The notes beneath the pieces were generated by a model. It had not been told where the DNA came from, made no database searches, and saw only the letters and a list, made by a program, of their open reading frames with translations. DNA of 54,454 nucleotides from a virus: positions 1 through 54,454 of IMG/VR virus record IMGVR_UViG_3300036668_000246; one strand, 5' to 3'. Positions 4,129 to 54,454 of this stretch are shown here, piece by piece; the first letter of the stretch is position 1; the number at the start of each line of letters is the position of its first letter. Position numbers and translations under genes: made by a program.

Positions 4129-4185
4129 ATGACAGATTTTGGAGAACTAATGACTACTCGCAATTACGGAAGATTGGTAAAATAA
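4129..4185 (+). CDS. 18-codon leader peptide coupled to the primase
   Basis: ATG at 4129 follows AAAAGGTG at a good distance and gives an 18-residue peptide (MTDFGELMTTRNYGRLVK). Its TAA at 4183-4185 overlaps the primase ATG as TAATG. A second in-frame ATG at 4150 has its own GGAG five bases upstream and gives an 11-residue version. The primase ATG has no strong ribosome site of its own, so translation of the leader probably feeds the primase by termination-reinitiation. It may be only a coupling device, with no function for the peptide itself. Confidence 0.45.
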   Translation: MTDFGELMTTRNYGRLVK

Positions 4186-6890
4186 TGGGAGACTGGACCT
4201 CAGCTGACGGACGACTCGGTCCTGCAGCTAAATACTACGCTCAGACTCTCAACTGGCAAGTTTTTCCTGTACACGGCATAGACCTTGTTGGTAAGTGCAC
4301 TTGCGGTAGGGCACATAAGGAGACTAAAGAAATTGCCAAACACCCGGCTTCGCCGCAGGGCCAGAAAGACGCAACAACTGACACTGTCAAACTAAACGCA
4401 TGGTGGGAAGAAAACCCTAGATATAACGTTGCCCTTTTCGCAAAAGAGTCAGGTTATTTTGTAATCGATATTGACCCAAGGTCCGGTGGTGACGCATCCT
4501 TTGAGAAGCTTAAAGAGATGGCTAAAGATGCCCTGCCCCCGACTGTAGAGGCAATAACAGGCGTTTATTGGAGCAAGGAAACTGGCGAACATGTTCGCGG
4601 GCGTCACATGATATATAAATGCTCCCCCGATGAGAAATTTATCGGTAATTTTAACGCTAAAGGCCTTGGCGGTATAGACATAAAGCATAACGGCTATGTA
4701 TTGATTGCCCCATCAAGGCACCATTCAGGGGTGACCTATGAATGGAAAGAAGGCCACGCTCCTTGGAACATAGAGGTTGCAGAGGCACCAGAAGAGCTTC
4801 TCAACATAATACGCGTCAGATCAGTGCAGAGGAGCGCATCTGGCACTAGCTATTCAGTTGGTGACTGGGACTTTCTAGACGGACTTTCACTTGGAGACGG
4901 CCGTGTAGATATAAAAAAGATCTTAGAAGAAGGCATATCAGAAGGCAACAGAGCAGTAGGCCTGTACTCGCTTGCTTGCGCTCTAGCCAATAAGTTTGGT
5001 ACAACAGTAGACGGAAGACTAGCAGTAGAGTCCATGATGCTTAGGTTTAATGCAGAAATGGTCAGGCCGCCTATGGAAATAGAGGGCCCTAACTCGATCC
5101 TGATGCACACCAGGAGAGCACTCGACTGGGTGGCCGATAACCCCAAGACGAATCTCTACTGGGATGGCATCTCAGATTGGGTTAAAGATCAGGGTATGGA
5201 AGTTGGCTCAAATCTACAACGTCAGTTCTTATCGCCAGTCACCTCTTCTACTGCTTTTAATTACGAAACTGATGAAGGTACATACTTAGCACCCTTAGGT
5301 GAAGAAGATGGCATTACCAAGAATACTGCAAATAATATTGGTGATCAAATGGCGTCATTTGCAGCGGAGGGTCGTGGCCTCAAGGAAGTCGCACTGGGTG
5401 GTAATCTAAATCTGCCTAAAGATGTCGATGCCTTAAGCGGAGACGCTGGCGGGCGGCCTGGATTTAGGAGTCTCTCTGATGTCGGTAACGGTAGGCGACT
5501 AGTTGACTCTTTTGGGTCAACTATTAGATATACCCCAGACGTTGGTTGGTTTGTCTGGGATGGGAATTACTGGAAGCCCGATGCTCAAAAGTTATCTATT
5601 AGAGAAGTATCTAAGATGGTCTCCACAGTTACCGCTAGCGAAGTTATAAACTATGGACCTGATGACGCTAGAGCTTCTGAGATAGTTAAATGGGCTAACC
5701 AGGCTAAGTCAAACTCTAGAATTACCTCAATGATCGAGCAAGCAACCTCAGACACCCGCATACAAGTAAACATTAACGAGTGGGATAGCAGCCCCACTTT
5801 GCTAGGTGTAGCTAACGGAGTAGTCGATCTAAAAACTGGAGAGCTAAAGAGTGGACGACCGGATCTCCACATAACTAGGCGATCTCCTATCTCGTACGTG
5901 CCCGGTATGACCAACATCAGGTGGTCCACTTTTTTGGATGAAGCCACTAACGGAGACAAGGAAATGCAAGCCTGGCTCCAGCGGGCAGTCGGGTATACCC
6001 TCACTGGGTTGAATAATCAAGACGTTCTTTTCTTGATCTACGGACCTCCGGGTTCAGGTAAGAATACTTTCATTGAGACAATATATGAGGCATTAGGTAA
6101 ATCTGAGTATGCATGGGCACTAGACCCTAACGTGCTTGCACTTGGCGATCGAATGAACTCCACCGATGAGTACCACATGGCCGAACTACGTGGTCGTCGC
6201 ATGATCTGGGTGGATGAGCTCCCTGAGAGTGAGCGTATCAAGGAAAATCAGGTCAAAAAGCTGACTGGTTCTGGTACTCTACAGGGGCGATCCCCTGGAG
6301 AAAAGCCGATCCAGTTCACCTCGCACGGCAAGCTGTGGATTTCTACAAACCACCGTCCTATTATTACAGACGATGCTATGTGGCGTCGTATGCGACCTAT
6401 TCCTCTGACAAATAAGCCAGAGGTACCGGACCCTAGCCTAAAAGAGTATTTGGCCGACCCAGAAGGAGCTCTTCCAGCAGTCTTAGCATGGGCAGTAGAA
6501 GGTGCTGTTAAATATCTTAACTCCAGTGCAGTTGACCCGTTGGGTTGGTGTACGAGGGTGAAAGAAGCTCATGATGTTTACAAAAAGAATGAAGATAGAA
6601 TCGGAGCTTTCCTAGACGAGGAGATCAAAGTTGTGGTAGGAGCGTCTATAAACCTATCGTCCCTGTTCCAACTATATAAGAACTGGAGCTATGCTCGTGA
6701 TGAGAAAAATCTCACTCAGATTGGATTCCAACGGAAACTTTCTGATAGAGGTATAGAGATAATTGGAGTTGGCAACAAGGCAACCATCCTAGGATATCAA
6801 ATGGGCCTAAGGGAAGTTCCGAGTACTACTATGATAGACTACAGCGCACACGCTAGATACGCAGCTGGAACTCCAGGTGGGAACTTTTAG
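4185..6890 (+). CDS. DNA primase-polymerase / SF3 (D5-like) helicase
   Basis: Replication initiator of 901 aa joining an archaeo-eukaryotic-type primase-polymerase to a superfamily 3 helicase. N-terminal Prim-Pol features: WQVFPVHG near residue 25, a CTCG motif at 38-41, DATTD and WW near 62-74, and the metal-binding DIDPRSGG with Asp95 and Asp97. GGIDIKHNGYVLIAPS follows. The C-terminal half has Walker A GPPGSGKN at 620-627 (Asn after the Lys rather than Thr/Ser), Walker B-like RRMIWVDELPE, and SF3 motif C near GKLWISTNHRP. It should unwind and prime phage DNA together with the family A polymerase at 17797. First main gene of the plus operon; the next gene follows after 14 bases. Confidence 0.9.
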   Translation: MGDWTSADGRLGPAAKYYAQTLNWQVFPVHGIDLVGKCTCGRAHKETKEIAKHPASPQGQKDATTDTVKLNAWWEENPRYNVALFAKESGYFVIDIDPRSGGDASFEKLKEMAKDALPPTVEAITGVYWSKETGEHVRGRHMIYKCSPDEKFIGNFNAKGLGGIDIKHNGYVLIAPSRHHSGVTYEWKEGHAPWNIEVAEAPEELLNIIRVRSVQRSASGTSYSVGDWDFLDGLSLGDGRVDIKKILEEGISEGNRAVGLYSLACALANKFGTTVDGRLAVESMMLRFNAEMVRPPMEIEGPNSILMHTRRALDWVADNPKTNLYWDGISDWVKDQGMEVGSNLQRQFLSPVTSSTAFNYETDEGTYLAPLGEEDGITKNTANNIGDQMASFAAEGRGLKEVALGGNLNLPKDVDALSGDAGGRPGFRSLSDVGNGRRLVDSFGSTIRYTPDVGWFVWDGNYWKPDAQKLSIREVSKMVSTVTASEVINYGPDDARASEIVKWANQAKSNSRITSMIEQATSDTRIQVNINEWDSSPTLLGVANGVVDLKTGELKSGRPDLHITRRSPISYVPGMTNIRWSTFLDEATNGDKEMQAWLQRAVGYTLTGLNNQDVLFLIYGPPGSGKNTFIETIYEALGKSEYAWALDPNVLALGDRMNSTDEYHMAELRGRRMIWVDELPESERIKENQVKKLTGSGTLQGRSPGEKPIQFTSHGKLWISTNHRPIITDDAMWRRMRPIPLTNKPEVPDPSLKEYLADPEGALPAVLAWAVEGAVKYLNSSAVDPLGWCTRVKEAHDVYKKNEDRIGAFLDEEIKVVVGASINLSSLFQLYKNWSYARDEKNLTQIGFQRKLSDRGIEIIGVGNKATILGYQMGLREVPSTTMIDYSAHARYAAGTPGGNF

Positions 6891-7940: not shown

Positions 7941-8216
7941 ATGGCTTTAGTAGATCGAATAACGAATGCTAAGACATCATATAAGAAAACCTTCATGTGT
8001 AAGCTGATATCAGTCTTACAGGACCCAAAGCTAACTGAAGCGGACGTAGACGCCGTTATTTCGGTTATAAACTCTAGTCCGTTAGCCGAGGGTTATGTGC
8101 CGAACATACGACTCGCATACGCTCTTCGAGAAGAAGGATATGATGTAAGTTCAAGCGCAGTTGATCGCCATAGGCGTAGAGACTGTTCTTGCTATAGAGT
8201 GATAACGGGAGCATAA
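7941..8216 (+). CDS. Small DNA-binding-like protein, function unknown
   Basis: A 91-aa basic protein that I do not recognise with certainty. Residues about 51-82 (YVPNIRLAYALREEGYDVSSSAVDRHRRR) read like a helix-turn-helix followed by an arginine-rich recognition segment, and it ends with Cys residues (DCSCY). Its start has AAGGAGAGATT upstream. Its TAA overlaps the metallophosphoesterase ATG as TAATG, so the two are translationally coupled and may act together. A role in DNA binding, for example as an adaptor or regulator for the downstream phosphoesterase, is inference. Confidence 0.6.
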   Translation: MALVDRITNAKTSYKKTFMCKLISVLQDPKLTEADVDAVISVINSSPLAEGYVPNIRLAYALREEGYDVSSSAVDRHRRRDCSCYRVITGA

Positions 8217-9421
8217 TGGATTTGGCAAAGAAACTAGAAGAGCTTCGTTCACCTGGTCGCAGTGGGTCAGATTCGAAAAAGATTGGCACCCCTGAGGATT
8301 GGCGTTCTCGCATGGATCTTGACTCAGTAAAAGGAGGATTTGTAATATCCTCTCCACGCCCGGAAGGCGAGCAGACAGCAGATGCAACTAGTGTCTTGGC
8401 TGAATTTGGATTGGATCCCCGCGATTGGGTAGTGTCGTCGATGCGAAGGGGCAAGTGGCAGAAATATGATGGGGACTATCTAGAGTCACTTCGGGTAAAT
8501 CTACTTCCAACCGGTCAGGTTGCAGAAGACAGCTTTGATGTTGAATCTCTAATGGATGAGATTAAAAAGTGGCGTCCGGCCAAAGGAATTAAAAAGTCAA
8601 CAGGGACTGGTGCTTTCTTGGCTGCCCCTAGCGACCAGCAGATTGGTAAGAAAGCTAACGGTCAGGGGACAGAGCAGTCTATAGGACGACTACTGCAATT
8701 AACTGAGAGTGCTGTACATAAGTTTGAAGCGTATAAGCGAATGGGTCTATCACTAGGAACCATATGTCTTGCCCTACCAGGAGACCACGTTGAGGGTAAC
8801 ACTAGCCAGCACGGAAGACTTCAAGGGCTTGCTGCATCAGATCTAGGGCTCACAGAGCAGACCAGAGTTGCCCGTAGATTGCTTTTAGCACAGATTAAAG
8901 CCTTTGCACCACTTACGGAGAACATGATTGTTCCTGTGATCAACGGTAACCATGATGAGGTAACTCGTCAAGTTGCTGCCGACCCAGCTGACGGGTGGAA
9001 CGTAGAGATTGCGTCTGCAGTGCAAGATATCTGCGCAGAGAACCCTGCACTTGCACATGTCGAGTTCAGGTACCCGTCCAGCGGGCATCAGACGCTAACC
9101 GTGGACGTTGCTGGCACAATGTTAGGCCTATTTCACGGACACCAAGCTAGTCAGAATAACATCATGAAGTTTTTGTCCGGTCACGCAGCGGGGCAGACGG
9201 CCCTAGGTACGGCTGATCTTTGGATCTCAGGGCACTTTCACAACTTTAGGAGCATGGACATTAGCCAAAGATTGTGGCTACAGTGCCCCACAACAGATCC
9301 CGGAAGCGAATGGTACAGAGACCGTAGCGGCATGGAGTCAAAGCCCGGATTGCTGACTGCTGTTATCGGTGGAGACTTTGAGCCACGAGAATTCATAAGC
9401 GTACTAGCAGTGAGAGGTTAA
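8216..9421 (+). CDS. Calcineurin-like metallophosphoesterase
   Basis: A 401-aa protein with the binuclear metallophosphoesterase signatures in its C-terminal part: PGDHVEG near 184, INGNHDE near 245, LFHGHQ near 308 and WISGHFHNF near 337. The first ~150 residues are charged and linker-like. Members of this fold in phages act as nucleases or phosphodiesterases, and the replication-operon setting suggests a DNA-processing role (Mre11/SbcD-like), although no SbcC-like ATPase partner is seen. Its start overlaps the preceding stop as TAATG. Confidence 0.8.
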   Translation: MDLAKKLEELRSPGRSGSDSKKIGTPEDWRSRMDLDSVKGGFVISSPRPEGEQTADATSVLAEFGLDPRDWVVSSMRRGKWQKYDGDYLESLRVNLLPTGQVAEDSFDVESLMDEIKKWRPAKGIKKSTGTGAFLAAPSDQQIGKKANGQGTEQSIGRLLQLTESAVHKFEAYKRMGLSLGTICLALPGDHVEGNTSQHGRLQGLAASDLGLTEQTRVARRLLLAQIKAFAPLTENMIVPVINGNHDEVTRQVAADPADGWNVEIASAVQDICAENPALAHVEFRYPSSGHQTLTVDVAGTMLGLFHGHQASQNNIMKFLSGHAAGQTALGTADLWISGHFHNFRSMDISQRLWLQCPTTDPGSEWYRDRSGMESKPGLLTAVIGGDFEPREFISVLAVRG

Positions 9422-37239: not shown

Positions 37240-40200
37240 TTAGGTAAGGAGTCGGAGCAGCTTGCTCATCTCAGATTGAACTTCACCCTGAGAGTACACA
37301 TCTGCTCCAGATATGTAGGATTTTAGACTTTGCGTAGCAATATCTGCATCCTTTTTACCGATTTTTGCCTCGACACGAGTAATCATCTGATCGATGAGGT
37401 CCTTGAGTCCAGACGGTAGATCGCTAAACTTTAATTTCTCTGCATCCTTGCCAAAAGGGAGAGGTAGGTTGGAAATCACAGTGCCTAGCTCTGCGGCGGT
37501 TGCGCGAACATTCTCTAGAGCTTCTGGATTTAAAGCTTTTGAGTCAATTCGGTCAATCATCCCAAGAAGGTCGTCACTCGCACCTGCGGAAGCGGCATAG
37601 TCTCCAGCAAAATCAAGATTCTCAGCTTCCTCTGCCTTCTTTAGAGCTTTTGATAGACCTGCAACACCTAGGTTTTGCTTTAGGCGAGCCAGAACCGTTC
37701 GGTACTTGCCCTTTGCGTCGCGTGGCTGATTTACACCGGAAACGTATTTAGGCTTGCCATCCTCGTCTAGACCGTTGGGGTCTGTTTTACCAGACTTGAC
37801 ATCCTTAGCTGCTTTAATCTCTTCTTCGGTTTGCTTGTCGGCCTCGGACTTAGAGTCTCGTAGTTTTTTTAGGTCAGCGTCAGAGATTTCGTCGTCATCA
37901 GTTTTTGCAAATTCTGAGTAAGCACTAGCTGTAATGCTGGCACGCATGGACGCTACCCTCTGGGCAGCTGCCATGGACTCAGCGTTTTTCCATTGCATCG
38001 GGATCAGAGCGGACTTCTTTAGAGCTCTAGCACGCTTCGCAATGTGTCTGCGCACTGCAGCCCGATCGGTTGCCTTAGCCCTTCCGTAGGCTTGGATTGC
38101 ATTTTTAAGGTCTTCTTCATCCCTAATTGGGTAAGCACCATCTGGCATTGCAATCCCTTTATCCGCTAATTCCAGCCGCTCCTCGGGGGATATCTTTGCC
38201 AGCTCTGCTACTGCCGCTGCGGTTAGAGTCTTCTCTCGAAGGATCATGGCGCTAGCAGTGATTGCTTGTAGATTTGCCTCGCGGAGAGACTTTTTTGCTT
38301 CCCTGACACGGATTTTTAGGTCTGGAGCAGTAGCAGCTAACTTTCCAAAGGTGTGAGCCTTATAAGATAAAGCCTGTACCGCTTCACTCTTTAATACGGC
38401 CATATGGCTCGCTCCAGCAGCGACTAACGCAAGCATCTTTCCGCCTGCTATCATCGCACGAGCAGTTGGGAATCCAGGCACGTTTACCTGGCAAACGGCA
38501 ACTAGCTCTAATGAGCCTCCAATTGGACGCCAGTCTCCGGAGGGGGCAGATGCGCGAAGTGCACGAACCTGCATCTCATCTGCATCTGGACGCAAACAGC
38601 CTGCAACCCATATACCAAACTGATCTTCGCCAGCGTGAACATCCGCAATGGCAGAAGCAGTGTCATCGTAATGCTTTGCTGCATCGGCAGCACTGGCATT
38701 CAGTGGAGCGTGCCCACCAGCAAGAGTTAACTGACCAACAGTGGCATCAGTTCCCTCTGCAGTGTGCACTACTCCAGTGTTGAAGTATGCGTACTTACTA
38801 CGTGAGCGAGGAGGCTTAGTTGAACGTGGTAGCCCAATGTGGCTAACGTGCCACGCAGCAATATGGCCATAGATGCGGCCATCCTTGTCTACGCTTAGAG
38901 GCGTGGGTTTGTCAAGTTTTTGGTCTTCAAACCAGGATGCAGGCGGTGCCATCGGGATCTCGGATTCTAGATACCCGGAAGCCATAATCGGCTCAAGGTC
39001 GCAAAGACCATCGATGCACTCTTCGTAGATACCGTCTTCTGGAGTCACGTATTCTTCCTGATCCCCCAAGTTAATAATTGCAATCGTGCATTCCTGGAAT
39101 GCAGGCTTAGCTACAATTGTAGCAGCCATAACACGGGCTTTGTTTATAGTGAGCTTGTCCTTGCCCATCTCTTCGCCAGCTTCATCCTCGGATCCTTCTT
39201 TCAGAGACGCCTTTGGGTTCTTCTCTTCTTTAGCTTCAAATTTATCAAGATCGACGGACACCCCACGCAAAAAACCATTCTCGACTAGTCTTTGAGCTTC
39301 GCGACCATACGGTCCAGTGTCGAATACACCAGTAGCATTCCCTAGGCCGCCTTTGATGCGCTCCACATTGTCAATACGACCAACAACTACAGAACCATCG
39401 TGACCGTTACCAGTTTTAATCTGCCACAGAAGAGGTAGAGGTAGGTCACGTAGTGTTATTGCCCCACTCACAAACTTGCGCCCATCGCCGGACTCGAGCT
39501 CTTCCGGCACCAACATAGGGATCATAAACCCAGCGCCTTTATCAGTACGAGCAGATGCAATTAATGCAACTTTTTCGCGGGCATCTGCTGCCTTAGCGAG
39601 TAGCTCGGATCTTCTAAACATTGCGGAGTCAAACTCTGCTTCTGAAGAGAATAAGCTGTACTCTGAGCTCATATTCTTGTCATTGCCTGGATTTAGCTTG
39701 CTACCTGTATAAACACCAGTTACTTCCTTGTGACGCAGCTGGCAGTAGCCCTTTGCGCGTGGGCCCATGTACTTAGAGAGATTACGGACACAGCGGGTCC
39801 AGTCCCCAGGAGTGCCCCATCGGATTTTTGCTGCACCCTTGCCTTTGGTCCAGTATCGACGAAGACCTTCCGCGTTTCCACGATTACGGTCAGCACCGCC
39901 AGCTGCAAGCAGCGGCTCTACTACCTTTTCCCAGAAGATGGAGAAATTGTATGCTGAAGCCTGCAAAGGCGACGCCTCGTCTGCCTGCTCTAAGACATCA
40001 TTTAAGACTTCTTTATCATCAAGTTCTACTACCGGTGGAGGCGTAGAGGACTTAAGGTCACTGAGGACTTGATTGTCCCGGTTCCACTTTCCATTCAAGC
40101 GTACATAAGTTACTGGATCGGTGGATGTCTTACTTTCGGGGACAATTGCAACAACATCCATCACGGCTTCTAAATCGTCAGGAGATAGCAGTGCCAAATA

Positions 40201-41520
40201 TTTAACAACTATGTCCGACTCACTCGGGGAATTTATAGCATCAGATGCTTTCTCACCAGCGGCATTTAGAGGCTTAAATGTGCTCCGCTGCTTTGCCGCC
40301 CATTTAGGGAAATCAGACATAAGCTCATTAATATCTTTAGCACTAAGAGGAGGAAGCGTCCCTGGCAAATGAGCCTTTGGCTGGTTAATTGGGGTCCTAG
40401 GCTCTCCAATTATCCCAGACATGTCTAAGGGTCCTTCATATGTGGGAACTCTGCGTGGACCAGTTACTGGGGCATCTGCCTCTGCACGCGTAAACTTGGC
40501 ATCAACGCTTACAGTTTTGCCATTATCTAATTTAACGTCAACCAATCCAGTGGCAGAGTCTACATTTTGTATGACACCAGAGCCACGCTCGCTGTCTCCC
40601 GCTATTACAACACGTCCTCCAGCTTTTGAGAACAAGCCCCCCGCATCTCTAACCTGATTTGAAGCTTTCTCTGAGCGCTCTTCAGGCGTGTAGTTGCCAT
40701 CTCGATTTGTAGGTGCTGCAGCGCTAATAATTGGTACACCCGCGGCACTTAGGACTTGGTCTATCATGTCAAAGTCTTCGTCAGCTAGCGCACCCCCCAT
40801 GAGTTGGGTCTCTTCTGGGTCAATCTCATGCAGCATCACTGGCGAGTAAGGGCGGTCCTGTAGGAAAGCAGAAATAATAACAGCAGAAGACGGGTCAATC
40901 ATCACGTAATCTTTTTTACACGTATCTGAGCTGTTGTCTAAGGCCTTATCGTATGAATATAGGTCTGCATCAACGTGACCCATGTTGTCCCAGTTGCAAT
41001 CGTCCCAAACATAGACTGACCCGTCGATGTCTATCTTGTACAGACGATCTATGCCAGAGTTATCCATGCGAATCCTTGCCATAAACTCTGGACCAACAAA
41101 GGGATCTAACTCGTGAGCTAGCTTAAAAGCATTTAGATCTGGCTCATAGTATGGTTCGACTTCTGAAATCTCGTAGGCGCCGGCTGACATGGCCTTCTTG
41201 TTCTCACGTTCAACTAAAGTAGATGCCCACCGTTGAGCAGCGTCCCCACCCCAAAGTGCCCAAGCGATACGGCCGTTAGACGGGAATCCATCCTCTCCGC
41301 GCTCGTAGCCTTTTGCCTTCTTGTCAACTTCGTGACGAGGGAAATATTTAGCAATGTGTCGAATCTTCTCTAGGCCAATTTGACCGCCAGAAGCAAGAGT
41401 GCGGGCAGTGTTCAACCCAACAGGTGTGCCACCACGTCCGGTTTCTTTGCGCCAGCTTAGAGCTTTTTTAGCCTCATTTTGGACTCCACCTGGAATAGTG
41501 TACATTCTGGACTCTGCCAT
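37240..41520 (-). CDS. Capsid maturation protease polyprotein
   Basis: A 1426-aa multidomain protein directly upstream of the MCP. Residues ~1-110: a short module with KALSWRKETGRGGTPVGLNTAR and GRIAWALWGGDAAQ. About 521-600: RYWTKGKGAAKIRWGTPGDW with TRCVRNLSKY. About 660-815: HK97/S78-type prohead protease-like region with GNGHDGSVVVGRID, FLRGVSVDL (candidate Ser) and ATIVAKPAFQE. About 860-1017: GRIYGHIAAWHVSHIG, GEDQFGIWVAG and PIGGSLELVAV, seen in actinophage capsid proteases. The rest is helical and charged. It likely cuts MCP and perhaps itself. Catalytic residues are inferred. Confidence 0.75.
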   Translation of the reverse strand: MAESRMYTIPGGVQNEAKKALSWRKETGRGGTPVGLNTARTLASGGQIGLEKIRHIAKYFPRHEVDKKAKGYERGEDGFPSNGRIAWALWGGDAAQRWASTLVERENKKAMSAGAYEISEVEPYYEPDLNAFKLAHELDPFVGPEFMARIRMDNSGIDRLYKIDIDGSVYVWDDCNWDNMGHVDADLYSYDKALDNSSDTCKKDYVMIDPSSAVIISAFLQDRPYSPVMLHEIDPEETQLMGGALADEDFDMIDQVLSAAGVPIISAAAPTNRDGNYTPEERSEKASNQVRDAGGLFSKAGGRVVIAGDSERGSGVIQNVDSATGLVDVKLDNGKTVSVDAKFTRAEADAPVTGPRRVPTYEGPLDMSGIIGEPRTPINQPKAHLPGTLPPLSAKDINELMSDFPKWAAKQRSTFKPLNAAGEKASDAINSPSESDIVVKYLALLSPDDLEAVMDVVAIVPESKTSTDPVTYVRLNGKWNRDNQVLSDLKSSTPPPVVELDDKEVLNDVLEQADEASPLQASAYNFSIFWEKVVEPLLAAGGADRNRGNAEGLRRYWTKGKGAAKIRWGTPGDWTRCVRNLSKYMGPRAKGYCQLRHKEVTGVYTGSKLNPGNDKNMSSEYSLFSSEAEFDSAMFRRSELLAKAADAREKVALIASARTDKGAGFMIPMLVPEELESGDGRKFVSGAITLRDLPLPLLWQIKTGNGHDGSVVVGRIDNVERIKGGLGNATGVFDTGPYGREAQRLVENGFLRGVSVDLDKFEAKEEKNPKASLKEGSEDEAGEEMGKDKLTINKARVMAATIVAKPAFQECTIAIINLGDQEEYVTPEDGIYEECIDGLCDLEPIMASGYLESEIPMAPPASWFEDQKLDKPTPLSVDKDGRIYGHIAAWHVSHIGLPRSTKPPRSRSKYAYFNTGVVHTAEGTDATVGQLTLAGGHAPLNASAADAAKHYDDTASAIADVHAGEDQFGIWVAGCLRPDADEMQVRALRASAPSGDWRPIGGSLELVAVCQVNVPGFPTARAMIAGGKMLALVAAGASHMAVLKSEAVQALSYKAHTFGKLAATAPDLKIRVREAKKSLREANLQAITASAMILREKTLTAAAVAELAKISPEERLELADKGIAMPDGAYPIRDEEDLKNAIQAYGRAKATDRAAVRRHIAKRARALKKSALIPMQWKNAESMAAAQRVASMRASITASAYSEFAKTDDDEISDADLKKLRDSKSEADKQTEEEIKAAKDVKSGKTDPNGLDEDGKPKYVSGVNQPRDAKGKYRTVLARLKQNLGVAGLSKALKKAEEAENLDFAGDYAASAGASDDLLGMIDRIDSKALNPEALENVRATAAELGTVISNLPLPFGKDAEKLKFSDLPSGLKDLIDQMITRVEAKIGKKDADIATQSLKSYISGADVYSQGEVQSEMSKLLRLLT

Positions 41521-47328: not shown

Positions 47329-47787
47329 TTAGCGAACTCCTAGGAATGATTTGATCTGCCAGTTGAATGTTTTATGTGTATCAATACGGCCTGCAAGAAA
47401 ATCCATCAGGCCTTGCTCGTTGCAATCCTGTGCTTTTTTGAAGGTGTCTAATAGTGAGTGCATTAACTCATCGTTTATTCTTTTAGCAGATTGCAATAAG
47501 AAGGCAGGAGATGACCCATCTAGGCGATCCTCTTTTATACGAGACATCTCTGCATAATCAGTCAAAAAATATGGGGCAGGAAATCCGGCTTTAAGGATAT
47601 TCTCACCCAACGGGTCAATCGAACTATCCACGTCTTTATACAGGGTTTTAAAGAACTTGTGGTATTCCCCGAAGTCCGGTCCTAGGACGTTCCAGTGATA
47701 TCCATGAAAAATAAACTTGGCTGCCACTGTATCTGCTAGCAGGTGCGCTAGCTTTCTCGCTAGTTCTGTGTTCTGATCTGAATGCAT
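47329..47787 (-). CDS. dps: Dps-like ferritin
   Basis: A 152-aa four-helix-bundle protein of the Dps family. HGYHWNVLGPDF has His31, EYHKFF His43, and SSIDPLGENI Asp58 and Glu62, the usual ferroxidase ligand positions; the fifth (Asp47 in known Dps) is Lys47 here. The end (MDFLAGRIDTHKTFNWQIKSFLG) matches the last Dps helix. Dps dodecamers store iron and protect DNA from oxidative damage. It is sandwiched between portal and capsid genes, with only one base separating it from the portal stop, so it is expressed late. It may protect host or packaged DNA. Confidence 0.85.
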   Translation of the reverse strand: MHSDQNTELARKLAHLLADTVAAKFIFHGYHWNVLGPDFGEYHKFFKTLYKDVDSSIDPLGENILKAGFPAPYFLTDYAEMSRIKEDRLDGSSPAFLLQSAKRINDELMHSLLDTFKKAQDCNEQGLMDFLAGRIDTHKTFNWQIKSFLGVR

Positions 47788-47788
47788 G

Positions 47789-49555
47789 TTAGGCCTCTGG
47801 CTCTGCTAGTGGTGGCGCTGTATCAGCGGGGTTTAGAGTGGAATCTTCAACCTGCTCTGAACCGTCTACTTCTGCTGCGGGGGCTTCACCCTGCAATAGT
47901 GAATCAATTTCTGGAGGTATTGCTGCCCCTGTGGCTTCTGAGGCATTTGATCGCACCTGTTGCATCATATCGGGGGCTACAGCAGTTAACATTGCCTCTG
48001 TAAGCTCAGGTGTTACTTGACCTTTTTGAATGATCAACCTGAGGGCCAGTTCCTTAGGGTCAGGCGCATCTGCATCCGAGAATCCATGGGCCCTACGCCA
48101 AGTACTGTAAGAAATGGCTAATTTATCAAAACCAGCATCTGCATCTGTTGCGCGATCATTACGAGTAGCAACCTGTGATGGGTCGTACCAGATACAGACC
48201 TTAGAAACTTCTTCTTCAGAGTAACCGTTGGCAATTAGGTATGGACGCAAGTAAACAACATTTATAGCATCAACGATTAGCAACATCAAAGGCTCTATGT
48301 GAGCTTTGTAGAGGCTTTCATCAATCTGTAAGGCGTTAGAGTATTTAACGTTGGCAAGTCCCGTCACAATGTCTTTGGGGACGTCTAGGCCCTGCATGAT
48401 ACGCTCTAGAACACGGTCGGAGCGCTCAGCTAGTGCTGGGTCGAACGAACGTTCGAACTTAAACTGCTTGATCTTGTCGCCAAGCTCTGCTGGACCACGG
48501 ATAATCAAAGGAACGATAGCAGACGCGGAGTCTTCATCCTTGATCGGGGTGGTCATTGCATCGATTAGTTGATCTTCGAAGTCGTCTGCGGCCTCTTCGG
48601 GGTTAAACTGCTCGTTGTAGTTACCTTCTTCATCATATGGGTAGTCGGGGTCAGGCGATGCAGCGACCGATAGACCATCAGGTAGATAAAGAGCACCAGC
48701 GTTGAGACGAGATCTTGCAGTCGCACGGAAAGTCCTATTCAGTAGTAGTAGTTCGGCACAAAGGTCCAGTAGACCTCTTAGGGATGAGTCAGACTCCTGG
48801 CTGTAACGAGGGTGAGCCCTCCAAATTCGGCCAACAAATGCCCCCTTCGGGAGAAGAATTGCATCAAGGTTACCCTGTGACATCATCGAAGCGACCCCTC
48901 CACCAACATCGCGGCGAGGATTAATTATATAGTTACCTTTTTGATCTATCTGCAGCTCATCGGTTGACCGGACGTCCCATGATTCAGGAAGACCCGACCC
49001 GAGGCGCTCTGGAATCTGAACCAGGTAGCATTCTCCGGTAACTTGCAAGTTTAGGGCGGCATCTTTCAAAAGACCAGGCTGTCCACCGTAGGCGGAACTT
49101 AGGCGGTCAAGGGCTCGCTCGGCAGCTGCAGCTAGGCGAGGGTCTACAGACTCTACGTCTTGAATAGGAGACGGTGCTTCGCTTGGATTGCCAACTGCAG
49201 CTGGATATAGACGAATTCTTGAGACAACAGACGCAACTAGGTTAAAAGCGTACTTGATTTCGCCAATTGCGTCGTAGTACTCCCATGCTTCCGACTGCCA
49301 AGCGAATGCAGCAGACTGCCTGCGAGACTTAAAACGCTCAGCTTCGGTTTTATCGTCTAATTTTACCTGTGAGGCAGCTGCAGTCATGGCCCGCGGTGCA
49401 TTAAAAGCCTGAGGCTCAGCGTAAACTATTCCAAAGGCATCTACTGACACACCCGGGGCAACCCGAGTAGAGTTTTTTGGGGAACTAGCACGAATAGTTG
49501 GGCTAGTTGCCCAATCGTTAGTCGATTTTGCCGGTTCTTTCTTAAAAATACCCAA
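47789..49555 (-). CDS. Portal protein
   Basis: A 588-aa portal from a TTG start with GGGAG upstream. SEAWEYYDAIGEIKYAFNLVASVVSRIRLYPA, GECYLVQIPERLG, WDVRSTDELQ and LDVPKDIVTGLANVKYSNALQIDESLYKAHIEPLM are typical of siphovirus portal rings. The C-terminus (EQVEDSTLNPADTAPPLAEPEA) is acidic and disordered. Lies between the membrane protein and the Dps gene, downstream of TerL as expected for a packaging module. Confidence 0.92.
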   Translation of the reverse strand: MGIFKKEPAKSTNDWATSPTIRASSPKNSTRVAPGVSVDAFGIVYAEPQAFNAPRAMTAAASQVKLDDKTEAERFKSRRQSAAFAWQSEAWEYYDAIGEIKYAFNLVASVVSRIRLYPAAVGNPSEAPSPIQDVESVDPRLAAAAERALDRLSSAYGGQPGLLKDAALNLQVTGECYLVQIPERLGSGLPESWDVRSTDELQIDQKGNYIINPRRDVGGGVASMMSQGNLDAILLPKGAFVGRIWRAHPRYSQESDSSLRGLLDLCAELLLLNRTFRATARSRLNAGALYLPDGLSVAASPDPDYPYDEEGNYNEQFNPEEAADDFEDQLIDAMTTPIKDEDSASAIVPLIIRGPAELGDKIKQFKFERSFDPALAERSDRVLERIMQGLDVPKDIVTGLANVKYSNALQIDESLYKAHIEPLMLLIVDAINVVYLRPYLIANGYSEEEVSKVCIWYDPSQVATRNDRATDADAGFDKLAISYSTWRRAHGFSDADAPDPKELALRLIIQKGQVTPELTEAMLTAVAPDMMQQVRSNASEATGAAIPPEIDSLLQGEAPAAEVDGSEQVEDSTLNPADTAPPLAEPEA

Positions 49556-50224: not shown

Positions 50225-53200
50225 CTACCTGACCCTAAATACGCGACCAACATTGCCAGTATTTGGTCTAGCGACACCCATTTTACGATCTGCGAGGCTT
50301 TTTGCACGTAATTTACCACCAGAAAAGCCCGGCGGGGGTTTAATTAGCAGCGCGGTCATGGCGTGAACCATTGCATCGATGCGGTCAGGGGATTTACCTT
50401 CTCCTGGGATCCAAGAGTACATTTGAGATTCTAGTTCTGGGAGGTAATTTACGTGGTGGACACGTCCTTGCTCGTATGCAAGAAGAATTGGTTCTGCTCT
50501 TAGCTGTTTTCCGTACTTAGAGTGGACCTCGAGGACTTTGACGCTGGGGTCAATAGAGTTAATTGCGTTTCGTACGAGTGCGCCACCTTGATTAACTTCG
50601 GCAACAACGGGACAACCCCACTTGCGAGCCATTTCCACAACTTTACGGGCCCAGGTATCTGGGGAACCATGAATTGAAGCGTCCTCAAGAACCCAAGCAT
50701 GACGCTTGTATAAATCGTGCTCTGCAGTCGATGCGCAGACAACAATACCGCACTCGTCGCGGGGGTTCTCAGCGACCGAAGGGTCAACGCCGATAACACG
50801 TAACGGAGTAGACGCAGGGTAATTAGTGTGTCTAGCTGCTTCAACTAGCTCTTCGTTCCACATTGCGCCTTCTAGGTCGTCAAGCATCTCTCCATAGAGC
50901 TCTTGTCGAGCTAGAGATGTGCCTTCGTAGACGCCCATAATAGTCTCAAGATATGCGCCGGAGAGGTTTCCAGCGTTATCCATTGTGGAACCTTTTGTGA
51001 CAACTACCTTTGCGGCAGTCGCCCTATCTGTGCGAGATTCTTCAATAAGTTTGTAGAGAAGCGGAGTACGCTTAGGGGTGGTGGTCGCCAATATCTGTGG
51101 GTTCTTACCAAGACGAGTACCGACTCGTAAGTTGTCAAAAGCAGTCATGCCCGCAGCGTCTGGGGTCTGCCGCCAAGCGGCAACTTCGTCGCCCCATGCG
51201 TGACTATTGGACGTCGGGATCAGACCTTCACCTGCAAGATAGAGGTGACTTGCAGAGTCAACGGTTATACATCTCATGAATTTTGGAGTGGTTGGGTCGA
51301 TAGACACAATAGAGTGCTGAGTAGACTGATACTTCCACTCATACTTAGCTTTAGCTAACTTACGTGGATTACGCACGAGGGGGAAGGTGGAGTTAACTTG
51401 GACGTACCAAGCCTCTTTACTATAGACTCCGGCCCGCTCCCTAGGTTTCCGATAGTAGACCTTAGGTACCAGACCTAAACTCCTAGCAAGTTCTATGTAT
51501 CCATCGATTAGTACCTTATTTGTGTTATAGAACCTGAAAGCACCATTTGGCTCAACGCCGCCGTCAGAGTCAGTCAGTCCCTGTAGTAGAGAGAGGCGAT
51601 CTTCTGCTGACGCCCTTAAGTAGATCTCGGGAACATGCTTGTTGTTGTACAGACCCAACTCCCTCCAAGGAGCTATCAAGTCAGCAGCCCAAACGTGATC
51701 TTTATTCATGTCTCTACTGGCTAAGCCTGAACGCCCTAACTCCTCTAAAAGCCATGATTTGTCATCTGTGTGGGTAGCAATGTAACTAGGAGCAGCGCTC
51801 GCGCCATCTCCTAGAACTAGTCCAAGCACCCAAGGGTCGATTGGTAGAGGCTCAGTGGATACTACATACTCTACCGCTTTTGTTGCAGGGATGTACAAGC
51901 GTCTTTTGGTATTTGCACGTAGCTGGTTAGTGTCTTTTACTTGATGATTAGTGGACTCTCTGCCAAACCGGTCAGTTGCCCATGTCTCAGGGATAACCCC
52001 ATCAAAGTGAGTGGTAACGTAGCGAAGGTCGGTGTTTGTGAGAACCTTCCACCTGTGCTTGCCGTCTGCGTCAATGTGCGTTCCGTTTGAGAAGTTCAAC
52101 CTGTAGCTGTCTAGGGCCAGCTCAATCTCGTGGACTGCCGTCACATTGCAGGGGCTACCTAACTCATCGAATACAACATCTCCTACCTGTAGGTCTCCCA
52201 TAGTTGACCATCCAGTAGGTGTAGGCACAGGGGTAGCAATGTCCAGCCTAAATTGCGGTCCACGCAAACCATCAGGTTCGTCGGCAGTGAAGAGGGTTGC
52301 AGTGTTACCATTCGGCCAAGTCAGACGTCTTTTAGACGGCTCGTAGTGTGGCTTCTCTGAAGGAGGGGAGATGTTTATGATTCCGGAATTGTGAGTTTTT
52401 ATGTAGCTCTCAGTAATTAGGAAGGTGTGATCAGAGGAATCTACAGCTATACATCTAACGGGTACGCTCTCTGTGGGAGAGACGGACTTCACGTACCTCC
52501 ACTTTTCTTCTGACCTATATTTCTTCAGACTGGCTGCTTTTCGAGTCAAAGAAGCCACAGGTAGTGACGTTGTGAAAGTTATACGATATGCGTCAGACGC
52601 AGTGTAGGTTTTGCCATTTGGTGCGGCTACCTGCCTACCACCGAGGCGAAATTTTACACCTCCGTGCTTTATCCCGAGCGTGGAAACTAATCTAGCGACA
52701 TCGTTAATAAGAGTTTTATTTGTATTGTCAAACTCTATCTGACCCCTCTTGGATACACTGCCATCCGAGTCTATAAGTCCCTGAAGGAGCGACATCCTCT
52801 GGTCGATACTTGAGTGAAAGTATGACTCTGGGATGTGTTTATTTTGTATAAGATTGTTTAACTTAAGAGCCCGATTAAGTCCATCCGTGACCCCAAAAGT
52901 ATAGATAGTCTTATTGTCGGTAGTAGTGTAACCTTCGGAGTCAATTCGAGCACGCACTTCCGGTTGGTCGTCAGTGTGACTGGTGATAGTGGCAGACTTT
53001 GCCGTACCGTCCCCAAGCCACATCCCGAGGGTATATGGACCGATTGGCAGAGAAGCATCCTGCCCTACAACAGCAGCTATGCGGATTCCATGATTAGAGT
53101 TGAGGTAGCCATTTAAAGTTTTCTGGGTATTGTGCAGCTCTTCGGTAGTCCTAACGCCTTGGTACGTGTTTGGCATTCTCTGCTCGTAACTACGCTCTAC

Positions 53201-53716
53201 ATGAGTAGAAGTCAGCCATTTGTGGTTAGCATCTGCAACCACTTCAGTACCTGATATGTCTAACTTGTAGCAAGGTCGATTGTTTAGTACTGAAAAAACG
53301 TGAGTTACTTTACATGGGTTGCCGTCGCCGCCTATGACGATGTCGCCCACTTTTACGTCTGCCATAGACACAAAACCAGTAGGAGTAGCTATTTTAGTGT
53401 CTAGCGCTAAAGCTTCTCCCTCGACGATTACGTCTCGAACGTCAGCAGCAGTACGAGCAACAAGTGCAAACCGACGTTGACCTTCAGTTGTGTACTTTGC
53501 CGTCTCGCGAACCCACTCGGAGGCCATTCTGGTTTTTCCAAATCCACGCCCGGCAAGAACCAACCAAACATTCCAGTCGTCGCTAGGGGGAAGCTGCTCG
53601 GGGCGCGCCCAGACATTCCAGTCCCAGAGTAGGGCGTCTGGATCAATCCCCTCTAGTGCAGCAGCCTGCTCCTCTGGAGGGAGCATAGCAATAAGTTCCA
53701 TAATACTTTTACTCAT
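50225..53716 (-). CDS. terL: Terminase large subunit with two inteins
   Basis: An 1163-aa precursor; removing inteins at residues 102-443 and 490-837 leaves a 473-aa TerL of normal size. ATPase: Walker A AGRGFGKT at 55-62, then VRDVIVEGE|SGIINISPP and GLRGPQF|SHAWGDE across the intein sites, with Asp843-Glu844 of Walker B. Nuclease: IGVDPSVAENPRDECGIVV, VVAEVNQGG and KSPDRIDAMVHAMTAL, giving the acidic metal site. It packages phage DNA. Splicing is required to restore both ATPase sites. No small terminase subunit is seen in the window. Confidence 0.95.
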   Translation of the reverse strand: MSKSIMELIAMLPPEEQAAALEGIDPDALLWDWNVWARPEQLPPSDDWNVWLVLAGRGFGKTRMASEWVRETAKYTTEGQRRFALVARTAADVRDVIVEGEALALDTKIATPTGFVSMADVKVGDIVIGGDGNPCKVTHVFSVLNNRPCYKLDISGTEVVADANHKWLTSTHVERSYEQRMPNTYQGVRTTEELHNTQKTLNGYLNSNHGIRIAAVVGQDASLPIGPYTLGMWLGDGTAKSATITSHTDDQPEVRARIDSEGYTTTDNKTIYTFGVTDGLNRALKLNNLIQNKHIPESYFHSSIDQRMSLLQGLIDSDGSVSKRGQIEFDNTNKTLINDVARLVSTLGIKHGGVKFRLGGRQVAAPNGKTYTASDAYRITFTTSLPVASLTRKAASLKKYRSEEKWRYVKSVSPTESVPVRCIAVDSSDHTFLITESYIKTHNSGIINISPPSEKPHYEPSKRRLTWPNGNTATLFTADEPDGLRGPQFRLDIATPVPTPTGWSTMGDLQVGDVVFDELGSPCNVTAVHEIELALDSYRLNFSNGTHIDADGKHRWKVLTNTDLRYVTTHFDGVIPETWATDRFGRESTNHQVKDTNQLRANTKRRLYIPATKAVEYVVSTEPLPIDPWVLGLVLGDGASAAPSYIATHTDDKSWLLEELGRSGLASRDMNKDHVWAADLIAPWRELGLYNNKHVPEIYLRASAEDRLSLLQGLTDSDGGVEPNGAFRFYNTNKVLIDGYIELARSLGLVPKVYYRKPRERAGVYSKEAWYVQVNSTFPLVRNPRKLAKAKYEWKYQSTQHSIVSIDPTTPKFMRCITVDSASHLYLAGEGLIPTSNSHAWGDEVAAWRQTPDAAGMTAFDNLRVGTRLGKNPQILATTTPKRTPLLYKLIEESRTDRATAAKVVVTKGSTMDNAGNLSGAYLETIMGVYEGTSLARQELYGEMLDDLEGAMWNEELVEAARHTNYPASTPLRVIGVDPSVAENPRDECGIVVCASTAEHDLYKRHAWVLEDASIHGSPDTWARKVVEMARKWGCPVVAEVNQGGALVRNAINSIDPSVKVLEVHSKYGKQLRAEPILLAYEQGRVHHVNYLPELESQMYSWIPGEGKSPDRIDAMVHAMTALLIKPPPGFSGGKLRAKSLADRKMGVARPNTGNVGRVFRVR
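51206..52249 (-). mobile_element. Intein 2 of TerL (class 3, LAGLIDADG)
   Basis: A 348-residue intein (490-837 of the precursor). It starts with Arg (RLDIATPVPTPTGW) instead of Cys or Ser and ends PTSN before Ser838. It has Trp556 in KHRW, Cys816 in MRCITVD and Thr835, the WCT set of class 3 inteins. LAGLIDADG endonuclease motifs LGLVLGDG and LLQGLTDSDGG are intact. It interrupts the host just before the Walker B acidic pair. Confidence 0.85.
52388..53413 (-). mobile_element. Intein 1 of TerL (class 3, LAGLIDADG)
   Basis: A 342-residue intein (102-443 of the precursor). It starts with Ala (ALALDTKIATPTGF), ends KTHN before Ser444, and has Trp167 in NHKW, Cys422 in VRCIAVD and Thr441, again WCT. 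LAGLIDADG motifs TLGMWLGDG and LLQGLIDSDGS look active. Sequence order and motifs match intein 2, so the two are related. Confidence 0.87.
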
Positions 53717-53736: not shown

Positions 53737-54454
53737 TCACTTAGGTCGGTAGAGCATCTCTTCAGTGTATGCGCCTTCACCGGAGGATGGGTCAGTTAGG
53801 AGGTCCTTGGCCTTAACTTTTATAGAGATTACCTTGCCACCTCCAGAGTAGTCTTTTGCAAGTTGGGGCAGCGTAGTTACCCAATCGCCCGAAACAATTG
53901 AGTCGGCATCTGTGGGGACTCCTCTGTAGATTGTGATCTCTTCTTCAGGGTCAAAGCCTAAGTCAGTTAGAGGCGTGTCTTCAGCGGCATTGGACGAACT
54001 GTCAGAAGTTCTTTGTCCTGGGTCGTACTCGTTAAAAATGCCTGTCTTTGTCTCTTTAGGCTTGTAGTCCCTGCTCTTGTGAGTCATAAAAGGCTCCCCG
54101 CTCAACTCTTGTAGCGTTGAAAGCATTTTCATGGTGTTATCAAAACGATCATTTTTATAAGTCGCGTTCTCTCCTACCGTTTCCGATGAGAATATTTTAG
54201 CCGCGTCCAGCCCAATCTTACCGTTATCCAACTCAACAAATAAACTTTTTATATTTGCAAAACTAAGAGTGTTGCCGGAGTTTTTATAGTCTTCGTATGA
54301 CCCGTCCCCGTGGAGTTGCTCGAACTTGGATTTAATTGCTGATGCCTCGAGGCCATACTTATCCAAGAAGTCTGTAAGCGTTTCACCCAGCGGTTCCACC
54401 TCATGGAAATCAAAGGCTCCAGCAACGCTAAAGTGACGATAAGGAGTTCCGCCC
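53737..54454 (-). CDS. ADP-ribosyltransferase-like protein (5'-partial)
   Basis: Frame open to the right edge, so the start at GTG 54399 (220 aa) is probably internal to a longer protein. The last ~70 residues look like an ADP-ribosyltransferase toxin fold: EITIYRGVP (Arg), GDWVTTLPQLAKDY (a Thr-Thr in place of Ser-Thr-Ser), and GAYTEEMLYRP with the Glu-x-Glu region (TEE). The segment before is charged and linker-like. Phages often place such domains at the end of MuF-type or internal proteins. Ends 20 bases before TerL. Activity is not proven; the match is from motifs only. Confidence 0.55.
   Translation of the reverse strand, partial: GGTPYRHFSVAGAFDFHEVEPLGETLTDFLDKYGLEASAIKSKFEQLHGDGSYEDYKNSGNTLSFANIKSLFVELDNGKIGLDAAKIFSSETVGENATYKNDRFDNTMKMLSTLQELSGEPFMTHKSRDYKPKETKTGIFNEYDPGQRTSDSSSNAAEDTPLTDLGFDPEEEITIYRGVPTDADSIVSGDWVTTLPQLAKDYSGGGKVISIKVKAKDLLTDPSSGEGAYTEEMLYRPK

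Follow-up and report, generated by a model that had tools for sequence, protein, structure and literature searches.

The terminase large subunit (TerL) gene of the virus in IMG/VR record IMGVR_UViG_3300036668_000246 encodes a 1163 aa precursor interrupted by two inteins, here termed intein a and intein b (Table 1). Both are very probably class 3 inteins bearing their own LAGLIDADG endonucleases, which reached two sites 138 bp apart through independent homing events. The whole record of 54,454 nt, referred to as the window, was analysed, and its gene was compared with relatives found when the precursor was used to scan viral contigs. Of 113 matches the best 80, most of which are intein-free, were retained, such that occupancy counts among them do not estimate population frequencies.

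The interrupted terminase gene

The exteins have the attributes of a phage TerL, namely a Walker A/B ATPase and an RNase H-like nuclease, and the Pfam domains Terminase_6N and Terminase_6C are found both in the precursor and in L011 (2.8e-23 and 6.7e-10, respectively, in the latter), the closest intein-free relative among the best 80 of 113. Both insertions lie within the region coding for the ATPase domain, with that of intein b immediately ahead of Walker B. About 75 related terL genes in the retained set are uninterrupted at both sites. L011 encodes a TerL of 473 aa, the length predicted for the spliced product, with 99.2% amino acid identity to the precursor spliced in silico; at the DNA level it matches the precursor without its two inserts over 1417 nt, at 95.6% identity and with no gaps. 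As the match to intein-free alleles is gapless, both junctions are fixed to the residue. The 24 nt stretches at the empty sites are conserved, lying at the 98th percentile for site b and the 87th for site a.

Portal and major head genes are located near terL. A separate portal gene is present at 47789-49555, in addition to a 1426 aa ORF (37240-41520) that has matches in several PHROG families of head proteins (portal, maturation protease and virion protein), and a gene for a ferritin-like, Dps-type protein (PF00210) is found just downstream of the portal gene at 47329-47787. Upstream of terL, the protein encoded at 53737-54399 has a C-terminal part that by eye appears ADP-ribosyltransferase-like, and a weak match to the PHROG ParB C-terminal family. 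On the strand opposite the structural genes are a metallophosphatase-like gene (8216-9421, a weak match) and a Prim-Pol/D5 primase-helicase gene (4185-6890).

Table 1. Positions of the TerL precursor, its exteins and inteins, and their principal motifs in the window. Slashes within motifs mark splice junctions or insertion points.
Feature	Coordinates	Strand	Evidence
TerL precursor ORF, exteins and two inteins	50225..53716	-	Pfam Terminase_6N/6C and LAGLIDADG_3
N-extein, aa 1-101, Walker A LAGRGFGKT	53414..53716	-	Sequence; intein-free allele alignment
Intein a, aa 102-443, 342 aa, A1...THN/S+1, site VEGE/SGI	52388..53413	-	WCT, termini, 6rix/6bs8 match 1e-20, AlphaFold2, fold match
Trp B:12, intein a (W167)	53216..53218	-	Structure and homologue alignment
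LAGLIDADG motif 1, intein a (YTLGMWLGDG)	53006..53035	-	Sequence; Asp in 61 of 63 aligned rows
LAGLIDADG motif 2, intein a (LLQGLIDSDG)	52760..52789	-	PF14528 3.1e-10; D215/D217 invariant
Cys F:4, predicted nucleophile, intein a (C422)	52451..52453	-	Structure and homologue alignment
Thr G:5, intein a (T441)	52394..52396	-	Structure and homologue alignment
Middle extein, aa 444-489, 46 aa, 138 bp	52250..52387	-	Joined to both flanks in intein-free relatives
Intein b, aa 490-837, 348 aa, R1...TSN/S+1, site RGPQF/SHAWGDE	51206..52249	-	WCT, termini, 6rix match 3e-20, AlphaFold2, fold match
Trp B:12, intein b (W556)	52049..52051	-	Structure and homologue alignment
LAGLIDADG motif 1, intein b (WVLGLVLGDG)	51803..51832	-	Sequence; homologue alignment
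LAGLIDADG motif 2, intein b (LLQGLTDSDG)	51560..51589	-	PF14528 2.6e-06; D227/D229 invariant
Cys F:4, predicted nucleophile, intein b (C816)	51269..51271	-	Structure and homologue alignment
Thr G:5, intein b (T835); Ser next, where penultimate His is usual	51212..51214	-	Homologue alignment
C-extein, aa 838-1163, Walker B DE and RNase H-like nuclease	50228..51205	-	Terminase_6C at aa 975-1121

Class 3 splicing centres and endonuclease domains

Class 3 inteins are defined by a Trp at B:12, a Cys at F:4 and a Thr at G:5 (WCT), with a dispensable N-terminal nucleophile and Ser or Thr at position +1 (PMC5222942). Alignment to the solved structures 6rix and 6bs8 identifies this set in intein a as W167, C422 and T441, and intein b has the equivalent W556, C816 and T835. 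Position 1 is occupied by a residue lacking a nucleophile in each case, Ala in intein a and Arg in intein b, and both have the block B His, a C-terminal Asn and Ser+1. When solved structures were searched with phmmer, class 3 DnaB inteins (6rix, 6bs8 and 6riy) were the best matches to both inserts, at 1e-20 to 4e-19, compared with 1e-4 to 7e-3 for the class 1 intein gp41-1 (6qaz) or its WCT-grafted form (6riz). Among 63 aligned homologues, chosen by profile score with the motif playing no part, the block B His, the W, C and T, and the terminal Asn are invariant in the splicing centre, as are D215, D217 and K192 in the endonuclease. Aligned over their full lengths, the two inserts are 34% identical (E=2e-51), hence their resemblance is not due to chance.

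Predicted structures, of high mean confidence in AlphaFold2 (pLDDT 94.4 for intein a and 94.3 for intein b), point in the same direction. With Foldseek, the whole inteins match PI-SceI (E=6e-20 for a, 7e-17 for b), while the splicing parts match class 3 DnaB inteins; for most chains the TM-score, normalised by target length, is 0.8-0.9. Both inserts contain two LAGLIDADG motifs with the catalytic Asp, a PF14528 domain and a PI-SceI-like predicted fold, and their endonuclease parts are under purifying selection (dN/dS 0.07-0.12) similar to that on the splicing parts. Judged on sequence and predicted fold, inteins a and b are class 3 inteins with intact LAGLIDADG endonucleases, which would be expected to splice and to cleave DNA.

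A preliminary description, made from the letters of this DNA, had already recognised much of this arrangement. The TerL host, supported by terminase domains found in the exteins, the coordinates and the 46-residue extein between the inserts are all exactly as it gave them, the six WCT residues lie at the positions it listed, and its insert borders agree with blocks A and G and the +1 Ser. Its assignment of both inserts to class 3 is borne out by the WCT residues, by the absence of a nucleophile at position 1 and by class 3 DnaB inteins being the best matches among solved structures; the alignment it had put forward as a check, of the inteins to each other and to known class 3 members, places both nearest to class 3. 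The presence of LAGLIDADG motifs in the same domain order in each likewise agrees with Pfam (LAGLIDADG_3/PF14528) and with the predicted folds.

A penultimate His at G:6 is usual in all inteins, but is not a criterion for class 3. It is present in intein a (THN) and replaced by Ser in intein b (TSN), a substitution common to the site-b inteins compared (intein b and those of L007, L010 and L104), through which C-terminal cleavage could be slowed. This Ser might be taken as a sign that one or both inserts have decayed and lost the ability to splice or cut, and decay does occur in the family, as LAGLIDADG motifs are no longer present in the inteins that Microbacterium phages have at site a. Such decay is nevertheless highly improbable here: the frame is open throughout an essential gene, every catalytic residue is retained, dN/dS is about 0.1 in both splicing and endonuclease parts, and the Ser is itself conserved among the intact site-b inteins of L007, L010 and L104.

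Occupancy among related alleles

The relatives that harbour inteins do so in several combinations. L009 has an insert at site a only (VEGE/S), 95% identical to intein a, and L094 and L095 are also filled at site a, their sequences stopping before site b. Site b alone is occupied in L007 and L104 (GPQF/S or GPQF/T), with 85% and 74% identity to intein b respectively, and L008 starts within a copy 99.4% identical to intein b of this phage. In L010, a P-loop class 3 intein (GK/T) accompanies intein b, and the 1692 aa TerL ORF of L105 (947-6022) is interrupted three times, by a class 3 intein at the P-loop, by a class 1-like intein with Cys1 at SLF/T, and by a class 3 intein at site b. Finally, a distant metagenomic TerL, L146 (162-3650), hosts two class 3 inteins, in the P-loop (PPRH/T) and at Walker B (DDPH/S), such that a TerL with two class 3 inteins is not unique to this phage. 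L158, a relative of L146, has one class 3 intein and a further insert beginning with Cys.

The combination of a and b is rarer. A degenerate pattern spanning the two junctions, which recovers this contig as a positive control, found the pair nowhere else among the viral contigs. Pattern-based searches of 84,980 prokaryote genomes with peptides of the precursor did not find a relative, a GenBank megablast with 8.5 kb did not find a near-identical phage, and no phage record covered 80% of the three-intein protein of L105. A class 3 profile scan of phage loci, covering part of the 700+ matching records, found no described phage in which a single protein has two inteins of class 3.

As the pair is seen in a single assembled contig, and singly occupied alleles exist among the relatives, the contig might have been produced by an assembler joining two strains, one with only intein a and one with only intein b, across their common 138 bp middle extein. 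Chimerism is improbable, because all of the exteins and the downstream flank match a single lineage about equally: the N-extein, middle extein, C-extein and downstream flank are 97, 94, 95 and 97.5% identical to L011. In addition, the middle extein is identical to that of no a-only or b-only allele compared (93.5% to L009), and two or three inteins in terL are likewise found on the contigs L010 and L105.

Probable independent arrival, and horizontal transfer of intein b

The preliminary description had left the pair to either duplication or repeated homing. When 80 class 3 inteins were placed in a maximum-likelihood tree, those at site a formed one clade (support 100/99), comprising metagenomic relatives and Microbacterium phages, and those at site b formed a separate clade (100/99), with L007, L010 and L104. 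Several inteins of other genes have higher identity to intein a (up to 43%) than intein b does (34%), which, together with the separate site-specific clades, excludes a recent duplication. An intragenic duplication, in which one intein was copied from the other within terL and then diverged, would explain the shared class, the common domain order and the 34% identity between the two. Forcing the site-a and site-b clades together makes the tree 26 log-likelihood units worse, although this joint grouping is not rejected (p-AU 0.194) and an ancient common origin is thus compatible with the data. The P-loop and Walker B inteins of L146 also fall in neighbouring, closely related clades, so spread from site to site within one gene may occur elsewhere. 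Duplication is still unlikely for this pair, given that the free tree places each intein within a strongly supported clade of other phages' inteins at the same site, that intein a lies nearer to inteins of other genes, and that a-only and b-only alleles exist. The pair is better explained by repeated homing events independent of one another; that half of the original proposal is supported by the site-specific clades and by a transfer tract, while recent duplication is not.

Transfer was assessed by comparing differences at four-fold degenerate sites in intein and extein, in 11 comparisons for which the raw p-values treat sites as independent. Against L008, intein b of this phage differs at 0/151 such sites and the extein at 23/182 (13%; p=6e-7). 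Similar deficits in intein b are found between this phage and L010 (48/145 in the intein, 106/188 in the extein; p=2.5e-5) and between L010 and L105 (10/166 and 57/238; p=1e-6); no excess indicative of transfer was found at four-fold sites when intein b was compared with L007 and L104. Intein b has therefore moved recently between phages, by local horizontal transfer. The signals for intein a are only moderate, being 28/94 in the intein and 21/36 in the extein against L095 (p=0.004), and 28/164 and 64/249 against L009 (p=0.04).

The C-extein matches L008 without a difference over its first 464 nt and then has 37 differences in 514 nt, and the 2.8 kb beyond the C-extein have 84% identity. This tract beside intein b looks like a footprint of co-conversion, although ordinary recombination could also produce one; its upstream end is hidden, as L008 begins inside intein b.

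Proposed mechanism and possible regulation

We infer the following sequence of events. In each intein, Cys F:4 would attack the N-terminal junction and the acyl group would be transferred to Ser+1, after which cyclisation of Asn would allow the exteins to join; the precursor would be spliced twice by this class 3 route to give the mature TerL. The endonucleases would cut the uninterrupted VEGE/SGI and GPQF/SHA coding sites of intein-free terL, and repair of the cut allele would copy the intein together with adjoining extein sequence. The two inteins probably arrived independently of one another. As the distance between the sites is shorter than the identical tract, conversion at one would often carry or erase the intein at the other. 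In haloarchaeal MCM genes, two neighbouring inteins co-home inefficiently into an empty allele, and alleles with a single intein are better targets (PMC10643990). This would predict stepwise filling of terL, which fits with the singly occupied alleles.

Differences in regulation between the two inteins are also conceivable. Position 48 of intein a is a Cys and corresponds to Cys48 of M. smegmatis DnaBi1, a redox-sensing residue that pairs with the catalytic Cys in a disulfide (PMC6195587). This residue is present in all site-a inteins examined, those of the Microbacterium phages included, and absent from site-b inteins, a distribution that might suggest intein a acts as a redox-gated switch on TerL maturation and intein b does not. 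Such gating is doubtful, as Cys at position 48 is common in class 3 inteins (26/63) and may thus be ancestral or structural, and about 75 relatives manage without any intein. A broader and equally speculative proposal is that in this phage group TerL traps class 3 inteins at several sites (P-loop, VEGE/S and GPQF/S, with the class 1-like site in addition), that two closely set endonucleases might travel together or compete, and that redox control might differ through the presence of Cys48 in intein a only, so that assembly of the packaging motor would need two splicing events of unequal sensitivity.

Comparison with known systems

Class 3 inteins are thought to have originated in phages, and to our knowledge their spread between sites is little documented. 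The relatives described here provide, within one phage gene family, closely related alleles that are empty, a-only, b-only, doubly occupied at the P-loop and site b, or filled by three inteins; with such natural alleles, experiments could address directly how homing proceeds, how sites are chosen, whether neighbouring inteins interfere with one another and whether Cys48 confers redox control.

Phage TerL proteins with class 3 inteins have been described before. Inteins of mycobacteriophages favour TerL, where seven insertion sites are known; class 3 inteins occupy two of these, TerL1-c and TerL1-e (PMC5050341). Kelley et al. 2016 placed TerL inteins, including those of Bethlehem and Gaia, in splicing reporters and assayed some for DNA cleavage (PMC5050341). 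The TerL1-c and TerL1-e inteins resemble inteins a and b in class and in interrupting the ATPase region of a phage TerL, but the mycobacteriophage examples examined have one intein per gene, whereas this phage has two. The Gaia site follows the Walker B Glu (FIILNE/SHH) and that of Anglerfish is SQDQ/TKN, by motif neither VEGE/S nor GPQF/S; the TerL proteins are too divergent for an alignment-based comparison of these sites to be reliable. A literature search, covering few subscription papers, did not find a report of two class 3 inteins in one protein; such an arrangement appears undescribed, but L146 has two as well.

In sequence, the best matches to both inteins are M. smegmatis DnaBi1 (6bs8) and M. 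chimaera DnaB1 (6rix), which have the same WCT set and block B His and share A1 and Cys48 with intein a. These are mini-inteins in DnaB without an endonuclease domain, unlike inteins a and b. In M. smegmatis, DnaB is likewise interrupted twice, but by one intein of class 3 and one of class 1 (PMC6195587). A parallel in layout is found in haloarchaeal MCM-a and MCM-d, two homing inteins at neighbouring sites of one gene for which singly occupied alleles are common; the host in that case is an archaeal helicase gene, and the abstract does not describe these inteins as class 3 (PMC10643990).

The Microbacterium phages Pumpernickel, Zooman, A3Wally and Cece (L002-L005) have TerL proteins recorded only as terminase, with inteins that resemble splicing-only products of decay. 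These inteins are inserted at exactly site a and belong to the clade of intein a, but are 269-271 aa long and have lost the endonuclease motifs, and in these phages site b is empty.
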